Assembly: GCF_013213975.1 (NCBI RefSeq)
Contig: NZ_JABSST010000018.1
Span: forward strand, 1 to 40,943
Source: Winogradskyella sp.
GTDB lineage: Bacteria > Bacteroidota > Bacteroidia > Flavobacteriales > Flavobacteriaceae
Reading direction: 5' to 3'
DNA: 40,943 nt
In this document: in pieces, positions 31,059 to 32,952 of the stretch
How positions within the stretch are numbered: the first letter of the stretch is position 1
How the letters are laid out: each line of letters begins with the position of its first letter
Program-made: the position numbers and the translations under genes
The notes under the pieces: model-generated
The model's input: only the letters and a program-made list of their open reading frames with translations
Database searches by the model: none
What the model was told of the DNA's origin: nothing

Positions 31059-31916
31059 TTACAACACCATATTTTCAATTGGACAAACTAAAATTCCCTC
31101 AGCACCATTAGCCTTAAGCTCATCAATGACATTCCAAAAATCATTCTTATTAATTACGGAGTGTAATGAACTCCAACCTTTTTTAGCTAAAGGTAAAATG
31201 GTTGGACTGTTCATTCCAGGTAAAATATTTACAATCTTGTTCAACTTATCATTTGGTGCGTTTAATAAGACGTATTTATTTTGCCGGCCTCTTAAAACAG
31301 ATTTTAATCGAAACTGAATTTTATCAATAATGACTTGATTCTCAGGTGAAATTTTTGGTGAAGTAGCTAAAACAGCTTCAGATTTTAGTAAAACTTCAAT
31401 TTCCTTTAAACCGTTTTTAAACAAGGTGCTGCCACTTGAAACGATATCGCAAATACCGTCCGCTAAACCAATATTTGGCGCAATTTCCACAGAACCATTA
31501 ATAATGTGCAAGTTGGCGTTCACGTCATTTTTAGCTAAAAATTGGTTAACTGTGTTAGGATAAGATGTAGCAATTTTTTTCCCCTCTAAATCTTTAAGAC
31601 TTTTAGCCTCAGATGATTTTGGTACTGCTATAGAAACTCGGCATTTTGAAAATCCTAATTTTTCTACAACAGTGATGTCCTCTCCTTTTTCTACAAGCAC
31701 ATTTTCACCAATTATAGCAGCATCCACAACTCCGTCTCTTAGATATTGTGGTATGTCGCCATTTCTTAAATAAAATACTTCAAGTGGAAAATTTCTGGCA
31801 GATGCCTTGAGCTGATCCTTACCATTATCAATAGAAATACCAATTTCCTTAAGAATCTTTAATGAATCTTCATTTAACCTTCCTGATTTCTGAACTGCAA
31901 TTTTTAGTGTACTCAT
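31059..31916 (-). CDS. hisG: ATP phosphoribosyltransferase (long form)
   Basis: HisG starts the pathway by joining ATP and PRPP, and is normally inhibited by histidine. The 285-residue length is the long type with its own C-terminal ACT-like regulatory domain, so no HisZ is needed. Visible parts are LKIAVQKSGRLNEDSLKIL at the start, NGDIPQYLRDGVVDAAIIG, LGFSKCRVSIAVP and, in the PRPP region, GLADGICDIVSSGSTL; the C-terminal 80 residues are the regulatory part. It is the first structural gene of the operon, behind the attenuator. Confidence 0.96.
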   Translation of the reverse strand: MSTLKIAVQKSGRLNEDSLKILKEIGISIDNGKDQLKASARNFPLEVFYLRNGDIPQYLRDGVVDAAIIGENVLVEKGEDITVVEKLGFSKCRVSIAVPKSSEAKSLKDLEGKKIATSYPNTVNQFLAKNDVNANLHIINGSVEIAPNIGLADGICDIVSSGSTLFKNGLKEIEVLLKSEAVLATSPKISPENQVIIDKIQFRLKSVLRGRQNKYVLLNAPNDKLNKIVNILPGMNSPTILPLAKKGWSSLHSVINKNDFWNVIDELKANGAEGILVCPIENMVL

Positions 31917-31953
31917 TTTGTCTTTATTGATTTGAACCTATCAATTGAGTCAA

Positions 31954-31987
31954 TAAAAAAACCCATTTGATATTTTCAAACGGGTTT
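31954..31987 (-). terminator. his attenuator (rho-independent terminator in the leader)
   Basis: On the minus strand AAACCCGTTTGA (31987-31976) pairs with TCAAATGGGTTT (31970-31959), twelve pairs with one G-U, around a five-base loop, followed by U7. It lies between the leader peptide and hisG, so it must be conditional. Its 5' arm can instead pair with the end of the leader reading frame (see findings). Confidence 0.88.
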
Positions 31988-32013
31988 ACTTTTTATGTTG
32001 AAATTAATCAATA

Positions 32014-32048
32014 CATTTTCACCTCGCTTGAGCGATTACCTGAAAATG
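32014..32048 (-). promoter_or_regulatory. his leader pause hairpin and antiterminator segment
   Basis: CATTTTCA (32048-32041) can pair with TGAAAATG (32021-32014), with an inner TCGCT-CA-AGCGA hairpin (32035-32024). The segment CAAGCGAGGT (32030-32021) is complementary to the terminator's 5' arm (ACCCGTTTG, 31985-31977): six pairs, a bulged A and three more. Folding was judged by eye. Confidence 0.65.
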
Positions 32049-32072
32049 ATGATGTAATTGATTGTTTAACAT
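32019..32072 (-). CDS. hisL: histidine operon leader peptide
   Basis: This 17-residue frame, MLNNQLHHHFQVIAQAR, contains three consecutive His codons (CAT CAT CAT) at 7-9. It lies 103 bases before hisG and directly before a terminator hairpin, the arrangement expected of a leader peptide that measures charged tRNA-His by ribosome stalling. The third His codon is the first base-paired codon of the pause hairpin. The last codons (CAA GCG AGG TGA) are the antiterminator arm, so a ribosome that reaches the stop codon would mask it and let the terminator form. It is too short to have a function as a protein. Confidence 0.88.
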   Translation of the reverse strand: MLNNQLHHHFQVIAQAR

Positions 32073-32136
32073 GATTTGTTTGTTGAAACAAAGTTTGTAA
32101 AAATAATTTTAGAATTCCAAGTGTTTTTTAAAAAAA

Positions 32137-32952
32137 TTATTGGTTGCCTAATATAATAGGCATTCCGCTCTCTCCAGAGCCGATAACAACTACCTTACTG
32201 TTAGGCGATTCTGCCAATTTGTTGGTGGCTTCAATTCCTTTATCCTGTAAAATCTTATCAGTCAAAGAGGCGCTTAAAATTCTGTTAGCATCAGCCTTTC
32301 CTTGAGCTTCAATTCTTTGACGTTCTGCTTCTTTTTGAGCAGTAACCAACCTGAACTCATATTCTAAAGATTCTTGCTCTTGTTTTAGTTTTCGTTCAAT
32401 GGCCTCTTTAATTGTCGGCGGTAACGTTACATCACGCACCAAAATTTCATCCAAAACGATATATTGCTCGTCTACAATTTTCTTTGTTTCTTCAAAAATT
32501 TCTTTTTGTATCGCATCACGCTTACTCGAATAAAGCTGTTCTGGTGTATAGCGACCAACAACACTACGCGCTGCAGAACGAATGGTTGGTAAAATAATTC
32601 TATTTAAATAATTGTCACCGATCTCTTGATGTAGCTTTCCAAGGTTTTTTTCGTCTGGCTTATACCATGCAGATGCATCCAATTGAATATCTAATCCGTT
32701 AGACGATAATACTTTCATTTTTTCGAAGATCTCTTGACGTCTTACTTCATAAATGTAAACCTTGTTCCAAGGTGCTACAATATGAAAGCCTTCACCTAAG
32801 GGTGGTTCATCAGTAACTACACCACCACCAAATGTCTTATAAAGTACCCCTGCTTCACCAGATCCTATTGTAACAGCTGATTTAGCAATGATTACAATAG
32901 TAAGTATGATTCCTAATAAAATTGGCAAGCCAACTTTTGGTAATTTCTCCAT
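32137..32952 (-). CDS. prohibitin/SPFH-domain membrane protein
   Basis: The 271-residue protein has one N-terminal membrane helix (about 9-25) and a prohibitin-type SPFH domain (about 28-190; GEAGVLYKTFGGG, LGEGFHIVAPWNKVYIYEVRRQE, IRSAARSVVGRYTPEQLYS, ILVRDVTLPPTIKEAIE). A coiled-coil helix rich in Gln/Glu/Arg follows (about 185-240; KLKQEQESLEYE..., QKEAERQRIEAQGKAD). Such proteins form large membrane rings, often as chaperones for membrane proteases such as FtsH. It is transcribed after the von Willebrand A protein gene (10 bases apart). It ends 65 bases before the his leader. Confidence 0.9.
   Translation of the reverse strand: MEKLPKVGLPILLGIILTIVIIAKSAVTIGSGEAGVLYKTFGGGVVTDEPPLGEGFHIVAPWNKVYIYEVRRQEIFEKMKVLSSNGLDIQLDASAWYKPDEKNLGKLHQEIGDNYLNRIILPTIRSAARSVVGRYTPEQLYSSKRDAIQKEIFEETKKIVDEQYIVLDEILVRDVTLPPTIKEAIERKLKQEQESLEYEFRLVTAQKEAERQRIEAQGKADANRILSASLTDKILQDKGIEATNKLAESPNSKVVVIGSGESGMPIILGNQ

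Follow-up and report, generated by a model that had tools for sequence, protein, structure and literature searches.

A probable ribosome-mediated histidine attenuator ahead of hisG in Winogradskyella and other Flavobacteriales, with evidence for a fifth pairing segment in many relatives

In the hisL leaders of Escherichia coli and Salmonella, an open reading frame (ORF) with His codons, a pause-type helix and an antiterminator competing with a terminator stand ahead of hisG, and ribosome-mediated attenuation requires that a ribosome follow closely behind the RNA polymerase. Here, we describe the region ahead of hisG in a 40,943-nucleotide (nt) stretch of Winogradskyella sp. DNA (the whole stretch analysed; hereafter, the window), where an attenuator spans positions 32072-31955 of the minus strand, and we conclude that it is very probably a ribosome-mediated transcription attenuator, a known kind of switch, that governs hisG together with the rest of the his operon. 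A first-pass annotation had drawn a His-rich leader with three His codons, a terminator with seven T, a pause-type hairpin (CATTTTCA/TGAAAATG) and an antiterminator formed by CAAGCGAGGT (32030-32021, minus strand) and ACCCGTTTG (31985-31977, minus strand) in the terminator 5' arm. All four lie where it had placed them (Table 1), and the latter two covary in relatives; the antiterminator contains one bulged A and one G-U and makes ten pairs when the neighbouring T-A is included. Two pairings were absent from that annotation, i.e., a helix (1:1') that links leader codons 4-7 to bases past the leader stop, and a fifth segment. In what follows, 2:3 denotes the antiterminator, 3:4 the terminator (segment 3, its 5' arm, being common to both) and 3:5 the pairing of the fifth segment. 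That is, the switch is of an ordinary kind and was correctly recognised, in a phylum in which descriptions of it are sparse.

The leader and the terminator are conserved across the order. HisG was searched in relatives, family, order and phylum, and the DNA upstream of hisG was collected; a leader was defined as a short ATG-started ORF containing two or more His in an H.?H context, and a terminator as a hairpin at -10 kcal/mol or better. Among 179 hisG upstream regions from the order Flavobacteriales, 172 had the leader and 176 the terminator, such that both elements whose presence in relatives the first-pass annotation had proposed to check turned out to be conserved. Seven loci had no qualifying leader (L092, L099, L149 and L176-L179); the upstream DNA of L092 is just 118 nt long, and a His-rich ORF appears in L099 once non-ATG starts are permitted. 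In a second set, 79 of 80 loci had the leader, the exception (L286) having 51 nt of upstream DNA. The two sets overlap: 249 Flavobacteriales loci have both a leader and a hairpin, and 234 of them are distinct. The typical peptide reads M...IQLHHHFH..AQAR or similar, with 3 to 6 His in 245 of the 249 loci. TTTG, as in TAnnTTTG, the -7 box motif of Bacteroidota, occurs 14-40 nt upstream of the leader ATG in 224/249 loci vs. 96/742 control windows farther upstream, most often (179/249) at -20 to -24, and the motif is complete in 88/249 loci; a Shine-Dalgarno-like motif precedes the leader in just 6/249.

Compensatory changes occur in each of the four classical helices across 108 leaders aligned from leader ATG to hisG ATG (alignment A1), the rows of which were picked by spacing and <85% identity, independently of pairing; the shuffle statistics for this alignment ignore relatedness. 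The terminator is paired in 97% of cells, with double changes in 10 of its 12 pairs, and the pause helix in 85.5%, with double changes in 6 of 8. For helix 1:1', the outer ten pairs are 65% paired, nine of them with double changes, and the inner two are 96% paired, the two values together being unmatched by any shuffle or slide. The antiterminator is paired in 87.2% of cells vs. at most 52.7% in slid versions, and half of its ten pairs carry double changes (25 double-changed cells vs. 9.9 in shuffles).

The switch logic was assessed by folding partial transcripts of 226 loci, which stop before the terminator 3' arm, with the ribosome-covered bases masked. The mean fraction of the 5' arm paired to segment 2 was 0.28 without a ribosome and rose to 0.65 when one sat on the His codons, exceeding 0.5 in 70/226 and 201/226 loci, respectively; in the window, the corresponding values were 0.01 and 0.82. 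This agrees with the stall-on-His logic of the first-pass annotation, from which we infer the response to histidine starvation and its kinetics, beyond elements whose conservation and covariation are directly observed. Transcription would probably start 10-15 nt upstream of the leader ATG, as judged from the -7-like box. When His-tRNA is scarce, the first ribosome would stall on the His codons, mask segment 1 and disrupt both 1:1' and the pause helix; segment 2 would then capture the emerging segment 3, 3:4 would come too late, and the operon would be transcribed. When His-tRNA is plentiful, a ribosome at the stop would mask segment 2 (cover that is assumed from the standard footprint), 3:4 would form, and transcription would stop at the T7 tract.

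Several points weigh against this interpretation. The ribosome-at-stop value in the partial transcripts is zero by construction, the bases being masked, and when the read-through RNA is folded in full, native hisG start included, 3:4 exceeds 0.5 in 216-225 of the 226 loci in every ribosome state tried. The switch must therefore be kinetic, given that the terminator dominates the complete RNA in all ribosome states; equilibrium folding of the full read-through RNA was rejected as a switch test, being uninformative for the same reason. Several slid versions of 2:3 match or exceed its number of pairs with double changes, its upper two G-C pairs are unpaired in 33 and 56 of the 108 leaders, and the swap test is weak (21/147 loci under 5%). 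At the level of loci, no terminator at -10 kcal/mol was found in L091, L162 and L179, and the hisG genes of L176-L179, from four 0.6 Mb genomes of the same order, have no leader ORF; 15 further hits in such genomes were left out of the 179, and the leader share would be lower if they were included. A terminator-like hairpin is retained in three of L176-L179.

Two other explanations of the whole region were considered. The terminator might just end the transcription of the upstream gene, the short ORF being there by chance, and a same-strand gene (32137-32952) does end directly upstream, which makes a terminator at this place plausible. However, 172 of the 179 order loci have a His-rich ORF, its codons are conserved, a covarying antiterminator lies inside it and a promoter-like box before it, and we regard this explanation as extremely improbable. 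Alternatively, the leader RNA might sense a ligand or a protein in a riboswitch-like manner, the ORF being incidental, as the strong structural conservation of the region could suggest. Yet no Rfam family reached its gathering score in the window, and the 11 weaker matches up to E = 10 in 31700-32300 were far below theirs, none being convincing and none being His_leader (RF00514); further, the conserved feature is the codons of the product amino acid, and in the same family, leaders with Trp codons precede trpE and leaders with Phe/Tyr codons precede the gene for prephenate dehydratase. We consider such sensing very unlikely, and we favor the attenuator.

The fifth segment, downstream of the terminator, pairs with the upper part of the terminator 5' arm and the loop, and comparative sequence data make it an unexpected but well-supported additional pairing in many relatives. 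In A1, 83.8% of cells are paired over 13 pairs, 10 of which have double changes; there are 127 double-changed cells, where shuffles give 45.2 (standard deviation 5.2) and no slide gives more than 54, and the covariation score of 0.338 (at most 0.109 in slides) is the highest among the helices counted. Two of the five measures tested against shuffles were not extreme, i.e., the pairs with double changes (reached by 43/500 shuffles) and the further pair types (14/500), and one slide equals both. Columns 136, 138, 141 and 142 hold 46, 15, 20 and 14 double-changed cells, respectively, and because these columns of the terminator loop are unpaired in 3:4 and 2:3, the signal is no by-product of the other helices. 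Swapping partners weakened the mean energy from -11.95 to -7.81 kcal/mol, with less than 5% of swapped partners as good in 82/147 loci (32/66 with identical partners collapsed). When the spacer is at least 28 nt, at most 2% of spacer shuffles are as good in 168/227 loci, with no signal (over 20%) in 25/227; for shorter spacers, a signal at the 2% level was seen in 1/22 loci. A test on a quick HisG tree of 119 rows, in which independent pairs were counted on supported branches, gave, for the five loop pairs, concordant partners in 2.9, 1.4, 1.3, 3.0 and 2.3 cases and opposite ones in 0.0, 0.0, 0.1, 0.1 and 0.1; the remaining pairs showed no difference, and no individual pair was significant. 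Among 233 loci tested, 193 have a duplex of -8 kcal/mol or better, and in 106 of these the segment ends 13-16 nt upstream of the hisG ATG; in some others it ends up to 49 nt away, and once 72. The window itself has a degenerate copy (-5.9 kcal/mol; 15.5% of shuffles as good), and that of Winogradskyella tangerina (L211), the HisG of which is 93% identical to that of the window, reaches -10.2 kcal/mol (1% of shuffles as good). Outside the order, among 17 loci with enough spacer, the segment is clear only in L182, which is a Flavobacteriales locus met again, and L184, and is marginal in L192 (0.02). L184, the HisG of which is 62% identical, comes from another family of the phylum and has a Flavobacteriales-type leader, terminator and fifth segment; its hisG was possibly transferred together with the control region. 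The fifth segment represents a new part, i.e., a conserved pairing without a place in the textbook four-segment attenuator, and none was met in the titles and abstract openings listed in searches of open-licence papers.

As for its role, our best guess from these sequences is that segment 5 links hisG translation to the read-through state. In many Flavobacteriales, the segment lies by the hisG start and has segment 3 plus the terminator loop as its partner. Only read-through RNA can contain it, and its pairing may tune hisG translation; we infer that 3:5 could arise out of the antiterminated state, in which 2:3 keeps the loop open as a foothold. The energies do not support a stable complex of segment 5 with the finished terminator hairpin, whether the two pair in cis or in trans: opening the finished hairpin costs a median of 12 kcal/mol, binding has a median net of +4.6 kcal/mol and is favourable in 9/179 loci, and 3:5 exceeds 0.3 at equilibrium in 2 to 9 of the 226 read-through RNAs. 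Segment 5 is complementary to the hisG start codon in many genera. The terminator loop often reads TGAGTAAA, as hisG does after its first A (57/186 loci identical, with many clades deviating), and in a test on 89 distinct combinations that ignores relatedness, the loop and hisG prefixes agree beyond 1999 of 2000 shuffles; for a pairing between segment 5 and the start codon, this is suggestive only.

It is possible, if on balance unlikely, that segment 5 hides the hisG start and that 3:5 in the antiterminated RNA frees it, such that only transcripts made in starvation would be translated well. The covariation in the loop columns and the end of the segment mostly 13-16 nt from the hisG ATG are consistent with this, as is local pairing with the hisG start region, which exceeds 0.3 in 115/193 loci, where masking segment 5 lifts the mean AUG openness from 0.33 to 0.50. 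However, masking also lifts openness in loci without local pairing (0.41 to 0.51), complementarity to the start codon beats at least 95% of shuffles in just 100/193 loci, loop changes are often not mirrored in hisG, and the arrangement is not present as such in the window, with 3:5 nearly absent at equilibrium. Alternatively, segment 5 could be the target in trans of terminated leader RNA, or part of a hairpin that pauses RNA polymerase at the hisG start; the pairing takes in the loop as well as the upper 5' arm, much as antisense pairing that begins at a loop does, and the hairpin end keeps a near-constant distance from the ATG, but the cost of opening the finished hairpin and the few loci with favourable net binding, given above, make trans pairing costly, and the pause is itself conjecture, so we consider both rather improbable. 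The fuller version of the start-hiding idea, to which we give somewhat less credence than to start-hiding as such, is a five-segment device in which a stalled ribosome would favour 2:3, the free loop would capture segment 5 and the hisG start would open, with leak transcripts carrying the finished terminator staying closed. If so, one stalled ribosome would set both the transcription and the translation of the operon, and it is the fifth segment that makes such a dual read-out directly testable.

Beyond the order, a His-rich ORF was found in 20/22 loci of the class (the exceptions being L196 and L204) and in 2/6 located loci of the phylum outside the class (L184 and L205; L206 was not located and is left out of this count). 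Of the 16 class and phylum loci with leader and hairpin, a set that omits L184 for its Flavobacteriales-type leader, ten (L185-L192, L195, L200) have an antiterminator that beats at least 95% of shuffles, although its sequence does not resemble those seen within the order. For instance, the leader of L189 ends in GGGTAAGC and its terminator is GCTTACCC, i.e., the same logic in other letters. The antiterminators of L181 and L205 fall below the 95% mark, L201 has a terminator with no antiterminator found, and neither a convincing terminator nor an antiterminator was found in L207-L209 of one family of the class (f17). His-rich leader ORFs are retained ahead of hisG in L207-L210 of this family, and the read-out there may differ from the terminator/antiterminator type. 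The leader being kept across the order and in 20 of these 22 further class loci is therefore evidence for transcription-translation coupling in Bacteroidota, which is of interest in a phylum with few Shine-Dalgarno motifs.

In the window, NCBIfam assigns hisG, hisD, hisC and hisB, and the ORFs behind hisB look like hisH, hisA, hisF and hisIE by sequence. The minus strand from 32090 to 31940 (151 nt) folds at -35 kcal/mol (z = -4.74; equalled by 0/200 shuffles), its minimum-energy fold consisting of the pause-type helix, a small hairpin within it and the terminator. A predicted local fold pairs ACTCA (31950-31946) with TGAGT of the hisG start-codon region, away from the aligned segment 5.

Table 1. 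Coordinates of hisG and of the attenuator elements ahead of it in the window.
Feature	Position	Strand	Basis or remark
hisG, first his operon gene	31059..31916	-	TIGR00070 and TIGR03455 above cut-off
Leader ORF, MLNNQLHHHFQVIAQAR then stop	32019..32072	-	Direct reading; relatives
Three successive His codons, CAT CAT CAT	32046..32054	-	Direct reading; alignment A1
Promoter-like -7 box, AAACTTTG	32089..32096	-	TTTG begins 20 nt upstream of leader ATG
Helix 1:1', enclosing the His codons	32006..32063 (32063-32053 with 32015-32006)	-	Covariation
Pause-type helix, CATTTTCA (32048-32041) with TGAAAATG (32021-32014)	32014..32048	-	Covariation
Segment 2, antiterminator strand TCAAGCGAGGT, in the final leader codons	32021..32031	-	Pairs with segment 3
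Segment 3, terminator 5' arm, common to antiterminator and terminator	31976..31985	-	Covariation
Intrinsic terminator hairpin 3:4	31959..31987	-	Folding; covariation
T7 tract	31955..31961	-	Direct reading
Segment 5, degenerate	31930..31942	-	11/13 pairs with 31981-31969 (upper 5' arm and loop)

Regions ahead of other amino-acid genes were inspected as well. A run of two or three successive Trp codons was seen by eye in 23 of the 24 trpE regions L371-L394 (not in L392), of which L384 is from the window's own genome, and a terminator, which in most reads GGCTTGTC..GACAAGCC, follows at a short distance from the trpE ATG; a Trp attenuator is thus likely there, as judged from sequence. A Phe/Tyr-rich short ORF precedes the prephenate dehydratase gene in at least 8 of 25 regions (L346-L348, L350, L366 and L368-L370), with a terminator in most of the eight; the other regions among those listed showed no such ORF with the gene start chosen. 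No obvious leader was seen by eye ahead of ilvD in 21 regions. Like the his leader, these trp and phe leaders consist of an ORF rich in the product amino acid followed by a terminator. Unlike in the his leader, the trp terminator is mostly no more than about 45 nt from the trpE ATG, so that a fifth segment, for which no search was made, would have little space there.

Leader-peptide systems have been discussed elsewhere. The authors of a 2010 study, which adds the Firmicutes, knew such systems only in Proteobacteria and Actinobacteria (PMC2965389), and leader genes in general are treated in PMC4833913. Within the Bacteroidota, small ORFs reminiscent of leader peptides are described in Bacteroides thetaiotaomicron (PMC7366714), and the main text of a study of the his genes of the superphylum does not contain the word 'leader' (PMC8305728). 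Closest to our results, hisG and pheA of Flavobacterium psychrophilum were reported to be preceded by structured 5' elements, which were found in other genera too, and there were strong clues that leader peptides attenuate amino-acid operons; the section on the hisG and pheA elements gives no helices, antiterminator or fifth segment (PMC9723704). It is fair to say, as the first-pass annotation did, that work on such switches is scarcer in this phylum, as long as this is not taken absolutely, since leader-peptide attenuation has already been proposed for a flavobacterium (PMC9723704).

Compared with the known systems, the attenuator described here is like hisL of E. coli and Salmonella in its order of leader ORF, pause-type helix, antiterminator/terminator and hisG, a likeness by features rather than by sequence. 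It is unlike hisL in having no Rfam match, few Shine-Dalgarno-like motifs at the leader and, in many relatives, a fifth segment. In the Bacillus subtilis trp leader, which is controlled by TRAP, the trpE start is also blocked in the read-through RNA, and the idea of one leader controlling both transcription and translation is common to that system and to the model outlined above. However, TRAP is a protein sensor, whereas here the ribosome would be the sensor, with the translational layer being putative.
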